Shown here one piece after another: positions 28,751 through 42,683 of a DNA stretch of 64,000 nucleotides. Under the pieces are notes generated by a model. The model saw nothing but the letters and a program-made list of their open reading frames with translations. It searched no databases and was not told the DNA's origin. A program made the translations under genes and the position numbers. Every line of letters begins with the position of its first letter. Position 1 is the stretch's first letter. Location: NCBI GenBank assembly GCA_023053545.1, contig JAKZAN010000003.1, positions 1,201,001 to 1,265,000 on the forward strand. Direction: 5' to 3'. Origin of the DNA: Lepidurus packardi. Lineage: Eukaryota; Arthropoda; Branchiopoda; Notostraca; Triopsidae.

Positions 28751-30796
28751 CAGTCAAAGCTCCTTATTCGCGGGGGATACGTTCCGGAGAAAGTCCGCGA
28801 ATAAGGAAAACCGCGAATGTGGAATGGAAATTTACATTGAAAGATAGGGATACGTTCCAAAGTTAAAAAAAGACGGTCTATAGCAGAAAAATATTTTTTT
28901 TATTTTCACTGTTCATCAAAGCAAGCTTAATTATCGCCAGTTTTACATATTGGCGTAAGAAACTTCGTGATTTTCGCTTGTTTTGCAACGTTTAACATCT
29001 GCGTTAACTCTGACTGATACTCAAGCATTGCTTCGTCAATTTTTCTTTTAAAAACCAAGCTTCTTTCCACTGAAGGATCAGTGTTGACAAAATATTCGCA
29101 AAGCTGATAAGCAATCTTCAAACCTTCTGTCAGGCTTTTAGAAGTCCAATTTATCTGATCTGATCTAGCTCCGGTCTCTTCTTCAACCGAGTCTTCCTTA
29201 TTCAACATAAGTTCTAAATCAGCTTCGGTCAAGTCTTCTTGAGATTCTAGCAATTCCTGGACGTCAGATGATTGCAAAGTTTCGAAGCCATCTCGCCCTA
29301 TGCTGTTTGCTACGCGAACAATGTCCTCGGTGATTTCCTGAACATTCACGGTTTCCTTGTTTATTTCTTCAGTCAAGCTAGCTGGCCACAGTTTTTTCCA
29401 GCAGGCCTTCAATGTGGACTGTCTTAGCTTTTGAATTGCTTCTTTAATGCAAACAATGCACCTTGCTATGTCAAACTTCTTCCAGCATTCAGTGACGGTT
29501 AATTCCTGATCATTGTCCATGGAGTCGAGGATGATCTTGAAGGTTCTTCTGATGTAATAAAGCTTGAAGGCTTGGATTATTCCTTGATCCATGGGTTGGA
29601 GCAAAGCTGTTGTGTTTGGCGGTAAAAACACCACTTTTACATTAGGATGAGCGAATTCTAGCTCGCGTGGATGCCCCGGTGCATTATCCAAGACAAGCAC
29701 CGCTTTAAAATCGAAGTTAGCTTTTTTCAAGTAGGCTTCGACTTCGGGAACGAAACAGTTAAGGAACCAATCAGTGAAAACAGCGGATGTAACCCAAGCC
29801 TTCTTATTTGCACGCCAAAAGACTGGCAGATCTTCCTTCCTTTTATTTTTCAAAGCACGAGGATTAAGCGATCTATAAAGCATCAAAGGCTTAATTAAGC
29901 AGTCACCAGATGCATTAGAACAGAGAAGCAACGTAACTCTGTCCTTCGCTGCTTTAAACCCAGATGCGGATTTCTCTTGCTTTGATATGTAAGTTCTATT
30001 CGGCATTCTTTTCCAGAATAATCCCGTTTCATCCGCGTTAAAAACTTGCTCTGGCTTGTATCCTTCACGAGTGATCTGTTCTAGAAATTCTTCGGGATAG
30101 CTAACAGCCGCAGCAGTATCTGCTGATGCAGCTTCTCCAACAATTTTAATGTTGTGAAACGACTGTCGCACCTTAAACTTACTGAACCAGCCTTCTGAAG
30201 CCTTAAATGTAGAACCTGGAATATCAACTTCAGATTGCTTAAAATGTTCATAGAGACGCTTAGCCTTTCTCTCGTATTATTCCACCGGTTAAAGGCACCC
30301 GCTTTTGATTAAGTTCTTCAATCCACACGCTCAATGCGGCTTCCATTTTTTCAATAGTAAGGTTGAAGCTACGGAATTCCTAATTTTGTCTTCCGATTTT
30401 TTTATGAACCTGACTGTTGACTCATTGACGTTGAATGAACGTGCAACAGAAGCAAAGGAGTCACCAAGACGTAAGCGATCAAGCATTTCTACTTTCACTT
30501 TAAGTGGCAAAACTTTTTTCCTACTGTTAGTTACCTTTCCTTCTTTTTTACTCGCCATAATGAATCTTCAATGCGATGTGCTTGTAGGAGAAAATAATCG
30601 AGAAGAATCGCAAGTAAACAGTTTGAGAAATGAAAACATATACGTAATTACACGAGTTGCTTGCAAACGATCGGTGTGCGTGCGACCCGCGAATAGCGAA
30701 TTTTTCAGCCGCGAATAAAGAGATGCGGTCACAAAAATTTCACCCGCGAATACTGAATCCGCGAATACGGGAACCGCGAATAAGGAGCTTTGACTG
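28751..30796. mobile_element. Tigger/pogo-type transposon
   Basis: This 2,046-bp element is flanked by TA (28749-28750 and 30797-30798), with inverted repeats CAGTCAAAGCTCCTTATT at the left and its complement at the right. Both ends carry multiple CCGCGAATA motifs, likely binding sites for the CENP-B-type domain. It contains a single minus-strand transposase gene and interrupts the 5' region of hAT1. Confidence 0.95.
28927..30558 (-). pseudogene. Tigger transposase (CENP-B HTH plus DDD), two frameshifts
   Basis: The minus strand starts MASKKEGKVTNSRKK with a Psq-type helix-turn-helix (SFASVARSFNVNESTVRFI). A CENP-B-type domain in two frames follows (KMEAALSVWIEELNQKRVPLTG, then RLYEHFKQ..GWFSKFKVRQSF). 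The catalytic domain is intact: Asp in VFNADETGLFWK, Asp in LVLDNAPGH and the third Asp in LQPMDQGIIQ. The C-terminal part is open to the stop at 28927. Frames shift near 30350 and near 30270 (one extra G in the GAAAGGC run). TA is the expected target. Confidence 0.9.
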
Positions 30797-31289: not shown

Positions 31290-33592
31290 AGGTACCCCAC
31301 AGTCCTGTCCAACCTACCCCGTGGTGGGGCACGTTGGTCACTTTTGACCAACTCTTGTAGAAATTAAATAGTAAAAATAATGGCTTGAGTTAACTCGCCA
31401 AAAAAAATCATATGATAACTAGGATGGCAATGCTACTTTAAAACACCAAATTTAATTTTACATCAGTAATATAACGCCTTCTAGGCTCTCGAGAACGAAA
31501 AACTGTCCAACGTGCCCCGGTCTCCCCTATAGCTTTTGATCTCAGAAAATGGAAAGAGATGTCATTGAAATTGAATAGTTTCTATTTCATGCATGCGCTC
31601 CGTTACTTCGCCAAAATTGCTAAAGCTTGCCTAACCGGGGTGTCTGTTAAAACTAAACCCTTCCCTCGCTTTCTCTTCTGAGCACCTTCTTTCCTGGGGG
31701 GTGCTTTAGGATGTGGCCTAATCATTTCCGGGGTAACTTTACCCATAACGTTAGTTGCTTCATCTGTAATAGCTTGTTCGTTGTCTTGGTTAATTGTGTC
31801 TACTGCCATCTCTTCCGAATAAGGACGATCACTGATCTTAGCCGGCAAAAATTCATGATCACCGAAAACATGTTTGTCGCACGGCCAAACTCCAGCGGTG
31901 CGAAAGCCCGATTGAATGTTCTGGGGGGTCATGGCACGGGGAAAGGCAAGTCCAACTAATGACGCTACATTATGAATTGATATTGCTTGCCCTGGGTGTT
32001 GCGTCATCCACGTGTCGCAAGCGCCATTGTAGTACGAATTAGAGGGACCGTAACAGGAACGGTCAAGGGGTTGAAGTTTATAACTAGTATGGGGTGGAAT
32101 GGTCAGGGCAACAATGTGATGTTTTTTCATAAATTCCAGGGATTCTAAGGTGATATGGCTAGCATGGTTGTCCATGAGCAGCAATACTGGCTTTTCCGCC
32201 GTTGGTTTCGCATAGTGCGCGAAGTGTGCCAAAAAAGACGGAAGTTTTCACCAGTCATCCATCCGGATGGATATGCAACACCGACAGTGCCTTCAGGCCC
32301 ACCTAACAACATTTGTTGGTGGAATCTAACACGCGGAAAGATCAAAAACGGCGGAATGAAAGCACCTGCAGCCGAAATAGCTGCACACATGGTTACTAAA
32401 ATGCCACGCTCTTGAGACGTGGTCCTACCGACTTGTTTTACACCCTTGCAAGCGACAATCTTCCCAGGCTTCTGAACAGTTTTGGGGCCCGTCTCATCTA
32501 TGTTCCAAATATCAGCCGCCATAAATTTGTATTTACGCAGCAGCCCTTCATAAGTATCAAAGAACGAATTTATAACGGGGCGATTAAATGCCGTAGCTCT
32601 TGCAATGCTGGTCGCTTCAGGTGTTCGAATTGATAAATGAGAATTTCTTTTCAAGAACGAAGTAAACCAATCCACTCCTGCCATTTTCTTTTCTTCCCAA
32701 ACATTTACATTTTTCCCTAACTTTTTCGCGAAATTATACGCTAAGATCTTAACCTCACGAGGAGCCAGGCCGTGGTGCAGTTCAGAAGCTTGTTTAGTAT
32801 AATCTGCCAACTGTTCTTCTTCATCCTGCGTAAAAATTTGCCGAGTATTGTAACGGGGTAAAGATCTACGGTTGTCGGCTTCTTGAACATCTTGCTGGTT
32901 GTTGTTAAGACTTCCTGCGTAGCGTTTGATTGTAGTACGTGGAATTCCTGTTTTTTTAGCTATAGTGTACGCTTTTCCTCCATCTAAGTACTGACGTACT
33001 GCTTCTTTAATAAGCTCGGGAGGATGTTTTCCGTTTTCGGTTTTTCGGTGATAAACCCTCATTGTTCACTCAAAGAAACTTGATATTACATAATTGCAGT
33101 GCACAGGTTTGTATAACGTTTTTATGTCTGTTTGGTTCCAGAGTTGATATTCATGCTAATCTAGATTTGCTTTCGACCCGAGATCGAAACGAGACCAGCC
33201 GTGCTTGCCCGCCATGTCCGACCTGCCCCGACGACGGTCACTGAACAAAAATGGCGACATGTCAGTAACCAGCTACTTAAATGTACAAAAACTGGGCTTG
33301 TTTTGAAGGCAAAAGAGTCAGCTATCTCCATAAAAAATTCTACTTAGATACTTACCAAACGTCACACATAGAAAGACAAAGTGTCTGTTTTCAAAAGTTT
33401 GGAAAACTTACCGGAATAAAACAAAGAACGATAACTTTTAGTAGAAGTCGACGAGCACACCCGTTCTTTCTCAGTTGCTGTGTTTGTATGAAACGAACGT
33501 CAAGTGAATTTAGTGGACTTTTGTTTCAAAAGATGGCTCAGATATCTAAAATTGTCCAACCTACCGCGTGTCCAAGGTGCCCCGGTCTCCCC
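31290..33592. mobile_element. pogo-like transposon with rearranged left end
   Basis: The right end (33545-33592) reads GTCCAACCTACCGCG..CAAGGTGCCCCGGTCTCCCC, followed by TA. A second copy of this right-end sequence in the same orientation lies at 31502-31527, also followed by TA. Near 31309-31350 an inverted counterpart (GTGGTGGGGCACGTTGG) follows GTCCAACCTACCCC. The arrangement suggests either a short non-autonomous copy (about 31315-31527) abutting the transposase-bearing copy or a rearranged left terminus. The right end interrupts a YqaJ-like gene remnant. Confidence 0.6.
31603..33062 (-). pseudogene. pogo-like transposase, one frameshift
   Basis: From an ATG at 33062 the protein has an N-terminal helix-turn-helix (GKAYTIAKKTGIPRTTIKRY) and a CENP-B-type region (EEEQLADYTKQASE..GVDWFTSFLKRN). 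Catalytic motifs are WNIDETG, then in another frame LLLMDNHASHI and the third acidic position in LQPLDRSCYGP. The tail is basic and Lys/Arg-rich (KEGAQKRKRGKG). The frame shifts once near 32225, between FRLFW and LAHFAHYAKP. No introns are needed. This group is known from many animals and inserts at TA. Confidence 0.85.
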
Positions 33593-34199: not shown

Positions 34200-34962
34200 C
34201 TGTGAGCGGCTGTTTTTCTCTACGTGTCTTGCCTTGGTAATGCCCAGTTTAAGTTTCTTTAGCAAAGCACATTCGGACGAAATAGAAGAAGGGTGGAACT
34301 TTTTGGGGAAGGATATTCGTTACGCGCACGCTGGACTAACGAGATTCTTTATGTCCTCCTTCATGTCTTCAGTGTAGTTTGTTGGTAAGAAATCTACTAG
34401 GTCAGGTTTCCTTAGTCCTTGACTTGCTTTAAATTGTGGCTCGTCGAGGCAAATATACCCGCGGCCATTGCAGAAATTTCGCAGGAGTTTTGAGACCCTA
34501 TCGTGCTTGTGAATTCGGGTCTCGTGTGATCTTGGATAAATCTATAGAATGTGGTTGAGTGTTTCCGGACCACTACAGCCGCCTCTACAATTTCTCATTT
34601 GTTCAGTACCCCTGGTTGTTCTACTAAGCCTTGGCAGTCCGTTTATTCTTAGTTTTATACTGTCTCTAAAGATAGAGACAGGTTGCTTAGCCTGGTCTAC
34701 GTTGATCAGGCAATTAATTGACATTGAAATTTTCACTTGATATTTCAAAAGCGATCTCCTTGGGAAGAGAGTTTAGGACTTGGTCGATGATCAAGTTAAA
34801 TAAAAGTGCAAAATAGGGGATCTCCCTGCTTCACTCCACGTGTAATGAGTACGTTGCTTGCTAAGCTATCACCATGTATCTGGAAGTTGGTGGTACAACC
34901 CTTGTAAGAATTTTCTATATATTCTCGAAATTCTGGGGCAATTTTAATGCCTTTAAAGGGCA
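34200..34962 (-). pseudogene. R2/NeSL-like LINE, RT C-terminus and endonuclease-like tail
   Basis: Continuing from 39312 across the Kolobok insertion, the minus strand encodes FREYIENSYKGCTTNFQIHG, the RT motif RGVKQGDPLF and, in another frame, NLIIDQVLNSLP. Farther downstream are a zinc-type motif CRGGCSGPETLNHIL and, in a shifted frame, HETRIHKHDRVSKLL and GLRKPDLVDF. CxxC..H followed by RIxRHDRI and KPDLV is the signature of the C-terminal part of LINEs with a restriction-like endonuclease (R2, NeSL). Stops and frameshifts make it non-functional. Confidence 0.72.
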
Positions 34963-35230
34963 ATAGCCACCAAAAAACAATTTTGTCTTATTAAAAGGAG
35001 TAACAAATATATTTTCTAACTTTATGGGTCTTTTTATCATACGCGAAAACATAACCTAGATAATAAGAAAATAAGAAGTCTAAAATTCAAACGATACATA
35101 TTTTGCCATTGGCCAACGCGGTCACGTGGCCTTGATGACGTAGATAGTGGAGGGCTAAGCTTCCTGAGCGCTCAGCTGACCGTGTGTTTTGTGTACTTTC
35201 GAAGTGTCAACGCGATATTCAACGAGTAAA

Positions 35231-36014
35231 ATGGCAGAAGGTTTTGACGAGACCGATTATTGTGATAGAAGCCCCTTTGTAGAAGATGAAGGGACGGAAT
35301 TTGACCAGGCTTTTGTCATTCCTGTGCCCGTAATTCAACAATGTGCTCAGGCCTACCAGTTTGAGCCATATAGGGCTCAAAGGTCGCCAATGCCAAAGCC
35401 ACGTGGCAGTGTTAGTGTTTCAGCATCACTTGTAGCTGCAGATTCTGGACCTGGAGATTCTGGAGAGTCTGAAGTTTCTGACTGGTAACTTATTATAAAA
35501 CATCACGTGCTTCTAACTGTACAGTATGTTGTAGGTGTGATTGTGGGAAGTGCGTTAGGATGCCTCTTCCTGTCAACAATTTCTGTTGCAGGAGAAATCG
35601 TCACTTTTTAGCCAAAGTCGACGCTAATAACGAGGACTTTCCACATCAGCAGGCAAAGTGCTATACAGAAACTGCTGCTATTCGTCGTTTGCTGTATCCG
35701 GAAGTCCTGGAATATGTATACCTTAGCTGGTGTACTTACGCTAGTGCCCGGAAAAAACATTTGCCGTTTGCTGATGATGTAGATCCCAACAGGTATTTCA
35801 TAAAGTATGGCTAATCAATCTTTGAAGTAAAATTTTATGTGTTAGGAGGAACAGGTTTAGCGCCTACCGTGCTGTTACCACGAACGTGTATAAGATACTG
35901 GGAGCGAGGACGAGAAAGCCCTTGCCAGCATGTGTTGAACATTTCATCAAAAGCAAGTTTCCAGATCCAACTGGCCAGTATGTCGGATACTCGGAGTGGA
36001 TGCCTGACGCCTGA
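35231..36014 (+). CDS. P2X7 ballast-like cysteine-rich accessory protein of Kolobok (3 exons, 226 aa)
   Basis: Exons 35231-35484, 35535-35792 and 35846-36014 join in phase to 681 nt with GT..AG introns of 50 and 53 nt; no stop interrupts it. The N-terminal third is acidic and Ser/Pro-rich (MAEGFDETDYCDRSPF). Then comes a Cys cluster WCDCGKCVRMP..NNFCCRR, followed by a helical region (YPEVLEYVYLSWCTYA) and RFSAYRAVTTNVYKILG, ending GYSEWMPDA. The order CxCxxC, CC, a long helix, then (R)..AYR..W/Y is that of the zinc-binding cytoplasmic ballast domain of P2X7 receptors. There is no membrane segment, so this is not an ion channel. Its role is unknown; I infer an accessory or DNA/RNA-associated function in transposition. 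A separate host gene captured between the ends is possible. Confidence 0.82.
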
Positions 36015-36217
36015 TAACGATGCGTGACGCCTTTCGACCCTGGCCTTGCCCGAGCCCTTTTCAGGGCTAAGGTCATATGAAATCAACAAAAACTTCCGTT
36101 TCATAAGCTAAGCTTTTCATTTATTTTCAGGGCTAAAAATCATTCGTAAAAATCCCCTCATTCTTGGTCAGATGACAAAAAAAAAGAAAGAAACCGTTTC
36201 CCAAGCTAAGCTTTTTG

Positions 36218-39058
36218 TTACTCATTATTTTGCTTCGGTTTTTTGAAGCGAGTAACTTTTTCTTCCACAGCTTTCCGCTTATCCGGATGATAATACGTGC
36301 TGCACATGGGTGGCGGAACTCGCGATCTGCCTTCCAATGCACTAGCATACAAATCGTCAAGGCTGCACTCTTCCTGCCTTTCAACTGACTCAAATACCCG
36401 TTGTATTATCTTTTCCAGATAATCTAAAGGAAAGCAGGGTAAGAACAAAAACGAGAACTATCTTCGAAACAAACCAAATGACGGCTCTTCTTTTATAGGT
36501 CGCACGACGTGGCCCCCTTTTTTTCCTTTCGGAAAATGAATGGAATAACGCTCCTCACCCAAAGCGGTTTTGGCTGTTTTCCGATTGGCGTTAGTATTGT
36601 ACTGCAAGGCCGCAATCTTCACTCTAAACGACAAATGTAAATGGGCACTAATACAAATAACAGTCTTACCGAGCGTACATCCCCTTGTTCGAAAAATGGT
36701 AAGATTTGGGGGCAAACTGGTTGACGAGGCTGTTGAAGCATTCAACAGACGAAGTCTGGGGCCCCGTCGCCAGCTTCTCAACGTCTTTGAGTAGTTTCTC
36801 ATTCAGGAGCAGTGTTTCTACTCTTTGTGCCACGTCTACAATACAATTGATAACACCGTGAAACCTAGAATTTTGACAAATCGTACCAATAGAAACCCAG
36901 TCTTTTTCCATTCCCTCTGGTCCGTCATCAAGGTCTTCATGAAGACACTTAGGGAAGAGTGGATTGGGGTGATCCACATGAATGTCGGCAATGTCGTCCA
37001 CCACCGACATCCATTTAGCTCTGACTAAATCACCTCTATCGTCATCCGTTGAAGAAGCGGACCAGTAGAGGTGGTTTACGATGGATCGAACCCACCCAGA
37101 AAGGGATGAATATTTCTTATCCATAGCTAACTTGTGCAGCTTCTTTTGTATACCTAAAAAGCCATCAGAGCTACGTAGCTACAGCAGAACCAGATTACCT
37201 TTGGCGACGTGCCAAACATCAAAATTATGGGCTACATCGGGCCACTGCTCACGCATGAACTTGACTACCTGCGGATGGCGATCAGTCACTAATTGAGCAA
37301 TGACTAATCCCTCATTCTGTAGGTAGTTCAAGGAGCGTTCAAGGCCCTTCAGCTCCATTCTGCAACTATGGCCGACGTCTGGCTCATTACACTAAATTTA
37401 CAGTTCACATACACAAAGAAAATATGCCTTTCAAATATTACCTGTACAATCTGGACATCTAAGACCTTGTTTTGCCCCAGATCCATCGAAGTATAGGCCA
37501 TGTACTTGGCTGAATGGCCAGGACTATCAGCCCTTCCATCGCCTCCCAGTACAACTTTTTCGTCTTCGATTTTCAGGTTATACAGTATATCCTGCTGTTC
37601 TTCGCTCCAAACACCATCAACGGATTGGAAAAGGAATTGCTCCTGGTGTCGAGTATACGTCCGTAAAGAAATACCGCACAAGCCAATCGATTTCGTCAAG
37701 CGAACAACCTTCTTCGGTGACAGACCAGAAGTGAGAATTCCGGCCGACAACAGAATATTTCCTACTGCATGTCTCTTTATGTAAGGTTGTGACTTCCACG
37801 ACCTAATATAGTTCAGCAGGTTACCGTATTTCAAAATTGCTACCAGATAGTTACCAATTACGGTCGCAATCCAAGCATTTTTGTTCAACTAGGAGACAAC
37901 TCCCTGTGAGTTTCAAATCGATCCGCGTGTTTTTTGCCCGGCAGTAAAAACAAAGATCAAAGAGAGTTCGCAACTGACTCTCGAAAACCATAAATTTGCG
38001 TTCTTTGTTTCTTTGATCAAAAGGTGGAATTGGAGAGCTAGCTTGTTCCCTAGAAGTAAATGCCTTTATATAGAATACATTCTTGGATCAATATAATTTA
38101 CTCTTTCACGGGTGAAATGTCCGATTCCGTGTCCTCGTATTCGTCGTCCGGTTCAAAATCTACATCGTCGTCAAAGGGATAGCCCTGTTCAGTTAGGGTA
38201 CTATTCAGGTTTTCTGAGGTAAAGGTACTGCTTCTTGGAAGCGGGTTCTTTTCCTACATATAGTTTCTCCAATTTAGAACGTTTGATATGCATTGGTATC
38301 CTATTTACCGGCAAAAGTAGCCCGTCCTCAGGAAACTGACAAGAGAAGTCTTGGGTCGTCATACCGGAGAACTGACAAGAAAAGTCTGCCATTTCAACTC
38401 CGGAAAATTGACAAGAGAAATCTTTCATGTTAGCTTCGGCCAAAGTCACTTCTTCTTCATTGTTTTCCAGATCAATTGCGGGTGTGGACTCCGAAAAAAC
38501 TAAGTCAGGCACCGAGTCTGACGTACAAGTGCTTGTGGCAACTGTTGGGACAGAACTTGTACTTTCGCTTTGAAGCAGCAATTCTTGGATAATCTAAAAC
38601 GTGCATATGTCATTACCCTATTTGGTCTTCAAACGTTGGAGTATATTTACGTTATGGCGTTGTCTTTTCTCAATAGCTGAGGTTTTCCGAGGTTTGGGTG
38701 GACTTCGCACCCCAGACACAGTAGCCGGCCTATCAAACTTAGTAGGGATAGCGGTTGGCAACAAACTCCTACCACGACGTTTTGCCCTAAGTCCCATTGC
38801 TAACTGTCGATCAACACTACTGTCGAATTGATCTTCGGTGAAATGATCACCACAGAGAGACACCGACTTGCTCATTTGGGCTTCCACAAAATCAGCCCTA
38901 GTCCTTTGTACTTGCAAAACCCATTGCCGTCTTCTTTGTGCATCTTTTGGGAATTTATACATCCCTACACCAGCAGTAACATAGTTTTTACAACCGTAAG
39001 CAGCACACTGGTTACCAGAACTTTTAGTAATCGACTCTGATGGCAGCTTACTTGCCAT
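36218..39058 (-). CDS. Kolobok THAP-DDE transposase (8 exons, one extra base)
   Basis: Eight exons are inferred: 39058-38651, 38593-38102, 38049-37855, 37802-37442, 37391-37199, 37153-36670, 36623-36475 and 36423-36218. All have GT..AG introns of 39-58 nt. They total 2,488 nt, one more than a multiple of three, because exon 2 shifts frame near 38207 (after YLYLRK, before LNSTLTEQ). An N-terminal THAP zinc finger (CAAYGCKNY..MYKFP..CGDHF) binds DNA. Acidic repeats DFSCQFSG occur three times. The catalytic part shows GGDGRADSPGHSAKY, VTDRHPQVVKFM, FDVWHVAKG, HLYWSASS and SVECFNSLVN, as in Kolobok. TTAA is the expected target. Intact except for that base. Confidence 0.87.
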
Positions 39059-39307
39059 TTTTTCACTAAAACTTAGGAAGCACAGAAGAAGTCTATACAG
39101 TGCCAGTGAATAACAAAGCGCTCCTGGGCCGCGCCTCCACTATCTACGTCACGCGCCCGTGGCGGGAAAATGCAAAAAACTTCGCAAGCCCATAACTCAG
39201 GAACGGCTAGTCAGAAAAATTTTAAACAAATTTTCCCGTTTTTAGAATAATGTGTACAATAAGAATCCATCCAAATATCAATACGCTATACCCGAGGCTA
39301 TTGCCCT

Positions 39308-39861
39308 TTAAGGGCTCGGAAGATCGCATGGTGGCTTACCGAGTCGAACGCCTTTCTGATGTCGATAAAAGCGCAGAAGAGGGGGGTTCCTTTCTTTTGT
39401 GCAGTCGTAAAAAGATTGTCTAGTAAGAAGACACTTTCTGCACATCCATCAAAACGAAGAAATGCCTTTTTGCTGTGATGTATTTTGAGGCGATCTCTAA
39501 GTCTTGAGGCAAGTATTTTGTTCAAGATTCTAACAAAAACGCTTGATATGGTGATCGGTCTAAATTGATCAGGTTTTGTTGGAGTGTTTACCTTTGGTAT
39601 CAGTATCGTGCGATGGGTCTTCAAAGCAGGCGGTAGATCCTTCAGATAAAGTATAACATTCAAGATTTTTGTTAGAAATCCGAGTCGTGAATAGCGAGGG
39701 TGTGTTCGTCTTCGGACGTCCATAATTTCCCTTTTTTCTCTCCAGATCGATGTCAAAAAGCCTATATAACAAGCCTGATATAACAAAAGCCTTCTATAGC
39801 ACCCACCTCGTAGTAGCCCACGATCCGGATTCCTGAGAACAGCCCTAGTGAAACGAAACAT
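39308..39861 (-). pseudogene. R2/NeSL-like LINE, RT fingers-palm part
   Basis: The minus strand encodes YLKDLPPALKTHRTILIPKVNTPTKPDQFRPITISS in pieces, ILNKILASRLRDRL, and FIDIRKAFDSVSHHAIFRALKG, the last being the RT box with the first catalytic Asp. The frame is interrupted at the TTAA where Kolobok inserted and continues at 34962. The GVKQGDP motif on the other side completes the palm. The N-terminal part of the LINE is missing beyond about 39861. Confidence 0.75.
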
Positions 39862-39994
39862 AGTGAAGGGTGAAGGATGATCCGAAAACTTCCTGTTAGA
39901 GTGCGAAAAAAATGCGGCTTCGAATAAGTGGTTTCGTTGCCTGTACTTCCTTATGTTGAAATCTCTCCTACGAACCTTAGAACCGGTGTATTAA

Positions 39995-42683
39995 TAGGGT
40001 TACCATCTCACGCGGATAAAATTTAAGGACAACTTAGGAAATTGTCGCAAGAATCAAGTGTTAAATGGTTTTCGTGCAAATCCCCTATTTCAGAAACACT
40101 TTCCCAAATTTCCTTATTAGTCAAAGAAATGAAACCATAAGAAGTTCAGTAAAACCAATCAGTATTTAGCGCTACAGAGCAATACATGACTGTCGATGGC
40201 AGAAAGCACACGTGGCATACACACTGTCAGTATTTGACGCAGACATGCAAGGTAACTACAGCAAATATTTGCTTTTAGACAAAATTTTTTGGAGTAAGTT
40301 CTTGTCAGACAACAATTTCGCATGCATTCCAGCACAGGTCAAGTCATAATTTACCTGCACTTGTAGCAACGCTTTGACAGTCGACGGTAGCAGGCGGTTC
40401 CTGTCATCAGTCCACTGAATTGTAGACAAAGAAAACACACGCTCCACCGGAGCATTTGACACAGGAATGGAGAATAACGACGACACTAATTGGTGGAGAT
40501 TTGGCATTTCTAAATGCCGGAAAAGGAACGCCCACTTCTTGTCAATTGGTTCTTCTGCCAGTCGCTTAGGTAGTCCAGAACGAAGAAAAGCATTGAGGGA
40601 CGATACTTCGTCAAACAAGGCATCCACCGCACACAGTGAAGATTTCATGAGATCAGCTGCTTTGTAGACGTCACTGTAGGAGACTTCTTCACTGGCATTC
40701 AACAGCATCCACTCACATGTTTCAGGAAGCAATTCCGGATGGAACCACTTTTCTAAGTATGAAATTGCGGTGGTGTAGAACTGCAACATTTCTGTACGCA
40801 ATTTTCTTGCCGCTGACAGATCATCCAGTTCTTCGAGCGCTTTCATAGCCAATGCACCGAAGAATTCCTTCTCCTTCCTCTCTCTTAACTTAGAAATGAG
40901 TAACTTCATGGAATTCAACATTTGAGGGAGAGGCAGATCATCCTTCTCCAATGTCAAAATCGTTTGCTGAAACACCTCCAGAGCCGATAGCAAAAATAGG
41001 AACTGGATCTCAGCCGTTTCACTTTCAAAGAACATTGTCAGCATTTTTGGGACGTTGTCCACTGACAAGAAATAGCTCTTGAGTGGCTTCCATAACTCAA
41101 GCACTCTCTTGATTACTGGCAGCAAAGAGAGCCATCGGGTTCGAGAATGTGTTGGCAGTGCTGCATAGGAGACTTCAAGAAAATCACAGAATTCCTTCAA
41201 TCTTTCGTAACGCAAAGTTTGTCCACAAAAATGAGATGAGATTTTGCAAATTATGGCCTCAGAATCGCACTGCAGTTGTCCACCAGCATGCTTCGAAGCA
41301 TTATGCACGATGTGTGCTGGACACCCAATGGCAATAAGGGTGGGATCTGCGGATTTCATCTGTTTCAGTCTTGCGTAGACATTATTTGTTCCTCCAAAAT
41401 GGACACCACCAAAATTTACATTTGCATTATCAGCACAAAAAGCAACACATTTGCCAATATCCACGCCATTCTTCTCCATGGTTTTTTGAATATACTGTGG
41501 AATCATTTCAGACGTTTCCCCTTTCAGGGTCTCAAATTCCAGTAATCCAACTCGCAGACCGTTTTCACAGAAAAAACGAATCACAATGGCGAACGTCTTT
41601 AATTCCTTATAGTTACTGGCATCAATGGAAATTGAGTATGGTTGATCTTGCAAATCAGACAGAAGTTCCTTTACAGATGTTGGTGCCAAAACTCCACAGA
41701 TAATTGCTTCAGTTTTAGTTCGTGCAGATGCAAATTTCTTCACTATGTCTGAGTCTGGAAACACGGTTGCTAGCATAGTGTTCATGCAATCCGCTGATTT
41801 AAAAGAATGATGGTGTCTTACCAAATGGTAAGCAAGAGTTCCTTCAACAGCGGCAGTTTTTAAGTCCACTGGCGAATTTGGCACAAGGACAAACTTGTCC
41901 ATTGCTTGCGATGTCTTCATCTCTTTCATAGCAGTCTTATGTCGAGCTGACTCCATGTGAGTTTTTATGAATGCTTGTCCACCATATGCGATATTCATGT
42001 CATATTGGCACACTTGACAATGTGCGAAGTTTTCTCCAAGACGACTCCTTTTAATCCCATCGAACTTCACGGCAAATTCTTCTCGATATATACATTTCCG
42101 TTTGGGTGCCATAGAAAATAGAACTTGGGCGACTTCGCAGGATCTGTTAACAAGTCAAGATAGCACGTAGTTAAATTATTTAAAGTATTGCACACAATAA
42201 TTCCATTAATTATACACACTTACTTAGTCAAGACACCTCCTAAGTATGGTAACTGAAGACTGTGGAGAGCCGTGAAATGTCTCAGAGCAGCCAGCAACAC
42301 ACAAATGATTACACACGAGTGCGTATAGTATACGCACGTATACAATACACACGTGTACGCCGTATACTTGTGTCGTCACTAGCCACTTACCATTAGCCAA
42401 TAGGACAGTTGCATTCCCCTTCAGCAGCGTGTGTTTGACTTTGACGGCTATAGCCGTTGTCCACGGCCCGCTATGCCGAACGGCTAGCCATTTTTAAACA
42501 GAACTTGCAACTGCATGCGGCGGGCATGTATTATTGATGTTTTGTTCCTTTTATTTTGACGAAATGTCTACAAATTTAGCAGCAACTCCCATTTAAGGAC
42601 ATATTTAAGGACAAACAGTCTTAAGGACGGGCATTCCAAATTTAAGGACTGTCCTTATCATTTAAGGACGGTTGGTAACCCTA
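39995..42683. mobile_element. hAT transposon hAT3, apparently complete
   Basis: This 2,689-bp element has termini TAGGGTTACCA / TGGTAACCCTA and an 8-bp target duplication TGTATTAA (39987-39994 and 42684-42691). TTTAAGGAC motifs are repeated near both ends (40022-40032 and 42595-42670), as expected for transposase-binding sites. A palindrome-rich patch (CGTATAC/GTATACG and CACGTGTG-like) lies at about 42310-42370. It contains a single intronless transposase gene. Confidence 0.93.
40256..42112 (-). CDS. hAT3 transposase, intact 618 aa
   Basis: This single-exon frame is uninterrupted. Near the N-terminus is a zinc-finger-like CQVCQYDMNIAYGGQAFIKTHMESARH. The catalytic domain includes YSISIDASNYKELKTFAIVIRFF, VAFCADNANVNFGG, GCPAHIVHNASKH and HSRTRWLSLLPV. 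The C-terminal hATC dimerisation segment is VSSLFSIPVSNAPVERVFSLSTIQW. Length and motif order are those of a complete hAT transposase of the group often annotated as zinc finger/hAT-family-like in animals. Together with complete ends and a perfect target duplication this copy could be active. Confidence 0.92.
   Translation of the reverse strand: MAPKRKCIYREEFAVKFDGIKRSRLGENFAHCQVCQYDMNIAYGGQAFIKTHMESARHKTAMKEMKTSQAMDKFVLVPNSPVDLKTAAVEGTLAYHLVRHHHSFKSADCMNTMLATVFPDSDIVKKFASARTKTEAIICGVLAPTSVKELLSDLQDQPYSISIDASNYKELKTFAIVIRFFCENGLRVGLLEFETLKGETSEMIPQYIQKTMEKNGVDIGKCVAFCADNANVNFGGVHFGGTNNVYARLKQMKSADPTLIAIGCPAHIVHNASKHAGGQLQCDSEAIICKISSHFCGQTLRYERLKEFCDFLEVSYAALPTHSRTRWLSLLPVIKRVLELWKPLKSYFLSVDNVPKMLTMFFESETAEIQFLFLLSALEVFQQTILTLEKDDLPLPQMLNSMKLLISKLRERKEKEFFGALAMKALEELDDLSAARKLRTEMLQFYTTAISYLEKWFHPELLPETCEWMLLNASEEVSYSDVYKAADLMKSSLCAVDALFDEVSSLNAFLRSGLPKRLAEEPIDKKWAFLFRHLEMPNLHQLVSSLFSIPVSNAPVERVFSLSTIQWTDDRNRLLPSTVKALLQVQVNYDLTCAGMHAKLLSDKNLLQKILSKSKYLL

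Follow-up and report, generated by a model that had tools for sequence, protein, structure and literature searches.

A Kolobok transposon of Lepidurus packardi with a transposase gene and a KolX gene predicted to encode a homologue of the P2X7 ballast

The window analysed here, a stretch of 64,000 nucleotides, contains a Kolobok DNA transposon of 4,351 bp (window 34957-39307) that is flanked on either side by TTAA and bounded at both ends by a perfect 12-bp terminal inverted repeat, AGGGCAATAGCC. Two converging genes lie within it. The KolX gene (35231-36014) has three predicted exons with GT-AG introns and would yield a protein of 226 aa, and the transposase gene, on the minus strand, has ten predicted exons running from 39058 to 36218 that together encode 793 aa with no frame break. 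The features of the element are as follows.

34953 to 34956, no strand: TTAA target-site duplication, left; both uninterrupted sister copies that were inspected have one TTAA here
34957 to 34968, plus strand: terminal inverted repeat, left, AGGGCAATAGCC
35231 to 35484, plus strand: KolX exon 1 (predicted), N-terminal part; residues 1-84 have a computed pI of 4.05
35535 to 35792, plus strand: KolX exon 2 (predicted), with CxCxxC, CC and C127
35846 to 36014, plus strand: KolX exon 3 (predicted), with AYR, PAC, FPxxxGQYxGY and the stop codon TGA
36218 to 36423, minus strand: transposase exon 10 (predicted)
36475 to 36623, minus strand: transposase exon 9 (predicted)
36670 to 36835, minus strand: transposase exon 8 (predicted), with candidate catalytic E652 in VECFNS (motif at 651)
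36887 to 37153, minus strand: transposase exon 7 (predicted)
37199 to 37391, minus strand: transposase exon 6 (predicted), with a candidate D in TDRH (motif start 503 of 793) and DVWH at 525
37442 to 37802, minus strand: transposase exon 5 (predicted), with a candidate D in GDG (motif start 434)
37855 to 38049, minus strand: transposase exon 4 (predicted)
38102 to 38253, minus strand: transposase exon 3 (predicted)
38309 to 38593, minus strand: transposase exon 2 (predicted)
38651 to 39058, minus strand: transposase exon 1 (predicted), THAP domain PF05485
39296 to 39307, minus strand: terminal inverted repeat, right, the reverse complement of the left
39308 to 39311, no strand: TTAA target-site duplication, right; sister copies as for the left

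The element interrupts what we take, from its motifs, to be a reverse-transcriptase-like frame on the minus strand (window 34796-34952 and 39308-39990). When the two flanks are joined over one TTAA, this frame remains open across the joint. A search of the genome (a 108.6-Mb assembly of 344 contigs, with the window part of contig C16) with the joined flanks returned 11 matches, two of which are the window's own flanks. Four sister copies cover the joint at 92-94% identity, three of them at positions 1-319 of 320 and one at 1-295, and both of the uninterrupted sites that we inspected have one TTAA and lack the insert. Because the insert is absent from these sister copies and the reverse-transcriptase frame continues over the joined flanks, we take the borders as proven, which places the perfect Kolobok ends and TTAA described in the first-pass annotation on firm ground. 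Contig C16 holds three of these four sister copies of the host retroelement. The TTAA duplication of 4 bp is that of the Kolobok superfamily, and the termini, 5'-AG ... CT-3', follow the 5'-RR ... YY-3' rule given for Kolobok elements (PMC9587614).

Other transposon remains occur nearby in the window, all on the minus strand: a transposase in which a DDE_1 domain is accompanied by a Tc5-type DNA-binding match below cut-off (28927-30276), two overlapping frames that in our judgement resemble another DDE transposase (31603-33065; no Pfam match above cut-off in 32145-33065), and a long open hAT transposase frame with Dimer_Tnp_hAT above cut-off (40256-42154). An Rfam scan of the window gave 0 matches at gathering score.

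KolX combines an acidic N-terminal part with a basic ballast domain (computed pI 9.2). The cysteines of the window copy comprise CxCxxC (C86, C88, C91), CC (C102, C103), C127 and C200; in the profile match described below these seven candidate zinc ligands align with cysteines of P2X7. An alignment of five KolX proteins shows six of them to be invariant, and the seventh aligns only inside the window's own family. We found no membrane segment (the highest 19-residue Kyte-Doolittle window is <=0.69) and no P2X_receptor Pfam match at E<=1, hence nothing of the P2X channel domain. The earlier description of this gene, with three exons, a 226-aa product, an intact frame, the CxCxxC...CC pattern, the AYR segment and no membrane segments, holds in these parts: the gene structure as a predicted exon model, the frame as open in the window copy, and the cysteine pattern with C127 and C200 in addition.

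The Pfam profile P2RX7_C (PF20478) matches KolX with 35.8 bits against a curated cut-off of 23.5 (E=1e-8), and it matches all five of the KolX proteins. A single KolX sequence finds the P2X7 chains in the PDB weakly (E=0.0034). When a profile is built from five KolX sequences of two Kolobok families, the whole-sequence match improves to E=1.1e-8, with the best single stretch, against P2X7 chain residues 463 to 591, at E=2e-5. The weak single-sequence match is what one would expect of a chance cysteine pattern in a protein unrelated to P2X7, but a Pfam score above cut-off, the agreement of 5/5 members and the profile match together make that explanation vanishingly improbable, and we reject it. 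We conclude that KolX is, on profile evidence, a homologue of the P2X7 cytoplasmic ballast, as the first-pass annotation had proposed from the order of motifs. A weak match to the phage replication protein Phage_lambda_P, which is below cut-off in the window copy and reaches E=0.0081 in one of the five KolX proteins, is taken as chance. A search of a protein database with KolX gave 134 candidates, none at E<=0.01; this database probably holds few animal proteins, and for that reason the null result is uninformative on the distribution of KolX.

The transposase shows the expected order of candidate DDE residues, with a C/DxxH signature between the second D and the E, if GDG at 434, TDRH at 503, DVWH at 525 and VECFNS at 651 are assigned correctly; the Pfam Mutator profile scores 19.6 bits, below its cut-off of 26.5. 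The first-pass annotation had read one extra base in this gene. We compared the exon model with three other copies (L018, L019 and L022) and reject a frameshift in the window copy: the ten-exon model reads through, and in L022, whose transposase is 65-75% identical to that of the window in exons 3-10, exons 4, 5, 6, 8 and 9 are just as long and have GT/AG at both borders. We think that short introns, left unrecognised, gave the impression of an extra base. A one-base deletion does occur in exon 9 of the L019 transposase. On present sequence evidence the element is very probably a two-gene Kolobok transposon of the Kol0 kind, with a THAP-DDE transposase and a converging gene for a ballast homologue; the assignment to Kol0 rests on gene content, KolX lying beside the transposase.

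The 784-bp KolX gene region has at least 41 matches in the genome (40 of 48 candidates scored), of which 10 span its full length at 96-100% identity and one spans positions 138-784; the remainder are incomplete or divergent. All ten full-span copies, and L022 as well, have an open KolX frame; the last codons were left out of the assembled sequences in 10 of 13 cases and are covered by separate matches. A second copy (G000:C16:1564973-1579040) covers the whole element and is 99.3-99.6% identical to that of the window, but about 10 kb of other sequence lies within it; its right inverted repeat is imperfect. KolX exon 3 is 100% identical between the window copy and deleted derivatives of the element, and exon 1 is 85-86% identical at the protein level, a mosaic pattern suggestive of gene conversion or recombination among the copies.

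Seven loci (L029-L035) belong to a second Kolobok family, clearly distinct from the first and with its own KolX. Compared with the proteins of the window element, this KolX shows 27% identity and the transposase 33% over 315 aa, and the two genes again lie on opposite strands. We inspected the left end at four of the seven loci: AGGGGGAGTAAGG follows TTAA in L033, L034 and L035, and in L032 the four bases before the end differ from TTAA. L035 also has a right end with TTAA and carries 518-bp inverted repeats; it is a deleted copy in which the end of KolX is altered. The KolX genes of L029 and L033 were assembled, each with four exons and an open frame. Tandem-like repeats adjoin L029, L031 and L034.

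Searches with the transposase cores of the two families gave full-length matches at 5 loci of the first family (120/120 residues) and 6 of the second (344/344), and KolX lies beside the core at all 11, including L019, whose KolX has an incomplete first exon and stands outside the assembled set, and a C16 copy at 1565251 that is split by other sequence and of which the rest of the element, KolX linkage included, was recovered. Shorter core fragments are mostly unlinked to KolX: we found none within 7.5 kb of C2:7423130, C2:7664816, C1:1197764 or four 39-residue core fragments, and none near the short core match C2:713999, while a weak match to KolX exon 1 lies near the short core match C6:10092061. 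The linkage that the first-pass annotation could see in one copy therefore recurs in two Kolobok families of one genome, and since these families retain so little identity in either gene, the association of KolX with the transposase is old.

The P2RX7_C profile has 8 matches in the genome, 8/8 of them in Kolobok elements (all from the second family except L022, which is of the first), and none at the two P2X receptor loci; the search went exon by exon, so it may miss weak or split genes, and the window copy itself is absent from the list. The count refers to matches of P2RX7_C, and 83 weaker or exon-wise KolX protein matches stand outside it. The two P2X receptor loci (G000:C6:6719973-6721352 and 6764078-6765561) are about 43 kb apart.

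Because the window copy and L022 have diverged to a dS above 1, near saturation, ratios between them are rough. With that caveat, dN/dS is 0.24 (0.13-0.38) for KolX as a whole, 0.13 (0.06-0.23) for its ballast part, 0.58 (0.26-1.18) for its N-terminal part and 0.07 (0.04-0.12) for transposase exons 4-6, 8 and 9 (exons 1 and 2 are unalignable and exons 3, 7 and 10 hold indels, so these were left out). The two KolX copies of the second family give 0.34 (0.16-0.69). Among recent copies KolX yields 0.91 (0.45-2.31; 26 differences) for the window copy against L012, 0.76 (0.33-2.80; 19 differences) against L011 and 2.47 (1.19-6.29; 10 differences) for L011 against L012, a comparison blurred by the fact that these copies look recombined. 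The transposase yields 0.31 (0.14-0.71) against L019 (exons 3-8) and 0.27 (0.11-0.66) against L018 (exons 4-10, exons 1-3 being unaligned). Intervals come from 500 bootstrap resamples, 438-500 of them usable per comparison, with gapped codons dropped. These ratios indicate that KolX is under long-term purifying selection, chiefly in its ballast part. KolX is looser than the transposase and is not visibly constrained among recent copies. The first-pass annotation had called KolX maintained by contrasting its intact frame with a broken transposase; the long-term constraint on the ballast part supports the claim, whereas the contrast falls away, since the transposase has no frame break and is the more constrained of the two.

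The genome also holds short derivatives of the element. At seven loci (L011-L017) the catalytic core is gone, KolX is intact and the THAP exons are kept; six of these have both ends and TTAA (L011 at 2,704 bp, five at 2,726 bp), and for L015 we found no left end. A different core deletion is common to L020 and L021, both of which lack the first KolX exon and part of the second. Three different deletions can be distinguished, with breakpoints at element positions of about 1360/3025, 1383/3012 and 1377/3054; the first breakpoints fall inside 23 bp and the second inside 42 bp. Each deletion joins exon 4 to exon 10 in frame, and the product would be a THAP protein of 343, 350 or 333 aa with the native tail (the frame was scored in L020; L021, outside the scoring, has the same junction). 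The three deletions are probably independent, because identity to the window copy is about 99% for L020 and about 93% for L012, and because L011 has in common with L019 a stretch of exon 2; the L011 and L020 gaps could also be the L012 gap, enlarged and moved by recombination. If frame were irrelevant and the events independent, three in-frame joints out of three would have a chance of 1 in 27, a pattern that is suggestive at most, having been spotted after the fact. In L026, which carries another deletion, the frame ends in foreign sequence. L021 has both ends and TTAA without a complete KolX, which implies that KolX is dispensable in cis.

P elements have internally deleted derivatives of the KP type, and by analogy the short THAP proteins of Kolobok are possible repressors. 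A broader proposal, that Kolobok elements repeatedly yield and spread core-less THAP derivatives as an inbuilt repressor system comparable to the one in P elements, with KolX as partner of the THAP protein, strikes us as doubtful, even with an intact KolX beside the THAP protein in two of the three kinds of derivative.

We tentatively favour a reading of KolX as a soluble helper that would act in trans, together with the THAP transposase, when the element transposes. Its basic domain, stabilised by zinc if the analogy with P2X7 holds, would aid the assembly or regulation of the transposase-DNA complex; as a whole we give this mechanism somewhat less than an even chance. No experiment on KolX appeared among the matches listed in our literature searches. 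KolX might instead regulate the element, as a repressor or through copy-number control, as its intact state beside the THAP half in two spread kinds of core-less derivative (L011 and L012-L017) would suggest, but the third kind (L020, L021) is missing the first KolX exon and part of the second, most other matches to the KolX region are short pieces from the start of the gene, and the spread copies are so nearly identical that KolX may have been retained by hitch-hiking. We consider such a regulator unlikely.

Less likely still is that KolX is a separate GTP-binding subunit of Kolobok with a guanine-nucleotide function. The thought is tempting because the P element, whose transposase is also of the THAP kind, requires GTP to pair and join its ends according to the sections available of PMC7776569. 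GTP/GDP-binding sites in the P2X7 ballast are likewise described in the available part of PMC9859053, the C/DxxH signature is common to the Kolobok and P superfamilies (PMC9587614), and the equivalents of R546 and Y550 are kept in 5/5 aligned KolX proteins, with K (window copy) or R (second family) at position 578. The loss of pocket residues weakens it: among R546, H547, R574, R578 and K583 the window copy keeps only R546, and as we read the alignment, H547, R574 and K583 correspond to F175, E202 and D211. In the P element, moreover, the same sections of PMC7776569 place GTP binding in a domain, helical almost throughout, within the transposase itself. Since Rump et al. (PMC7016195), in the sections available, report that only R546 and R578 of these residues are conserved in invertebrates, the losses in KolX count against nucleotide binding and not against homology.

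The idea that the P2X7 ballast came from a transposon has been published before, by Kojima & Bao (2022, Mobile DNA 13:24, PMC9587614), who named KolX, identified it as a ballast fold and concluded that P2X7 arose by fusion with it. Apart from PMC9319628, which mentions Kolobok and P2X7 once each, no other paper on Kolobok with KolX or with the ballast was among the matches listed in our full-text searches. The first-pass annotation had suggested that Kolobok elements generally carry this domain and that P2X7 obtained its ballast from them, which is the published conclusion and which our results support: the ballast would descend from a KolX-like transposon protein. Movement in the opposite direction, with the element capturing a host ballast gene, could be argued from the short ballast genes that Rump et al. 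(2020, PMC7016195) describe throughout the Metazoa, and for which they report ancestral synteny among invertebrates, in the sections of that paper available. However, every P2RX7_C match in the present genome lies in a Kolobok element and neither P2X locus has one, the pairing of KolX with a transposase is common to two deeply diverged families, and Kojima & Bao infer the reverse direction, so that host capture seems highly improbable. The central idea being already in print, what we add is confined to confirmation, a corrected transposase model and a set of short derivatives. The confirmation is independent, with proven borders and a test of selection, and concerns the homology of the P2X7 ballast to an accessory protein of a transposon.

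Compared with the Kol0 elements of PMC9587614, the present element agrees in superfamily, TTAA duplications, the pair of DDE transposase and KolX, and ballast homology; this family has its own ends, a three-exon KolX and deleted derivatives, and its relation to the published elements is judged from their description. The nanor and zinc-cysteine-domain genes of Rump et al. (2020) resemble KolX, as far as the sections available go, in that their products are short, end in a ballast and lack a membrane region. There they are presented as genes without mention of a transposon (the string 'transpos' is not found in the main text), whereas KolX sits inside a bordered element. With the P2X7 ballast (PF20478; PDB 6u9v, 8tr5) KolX has in common the order of cysteines and the AYR and FPxxxGQYxG segments; it differs in having neither P2X channel domain nor membrane segment, and at several residues of the nucleotide pocket. 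The P element belongs to another superfamily, and KolX is a second gene of Kolobok for which we know of no P-element counterpart. A repressor role for the Kolobok derivatives is suggested by analogy, and the likeness behind it is that, as in KP-type derivatives, deletion of the catalytic core leaves a short THAP-bearing protein.
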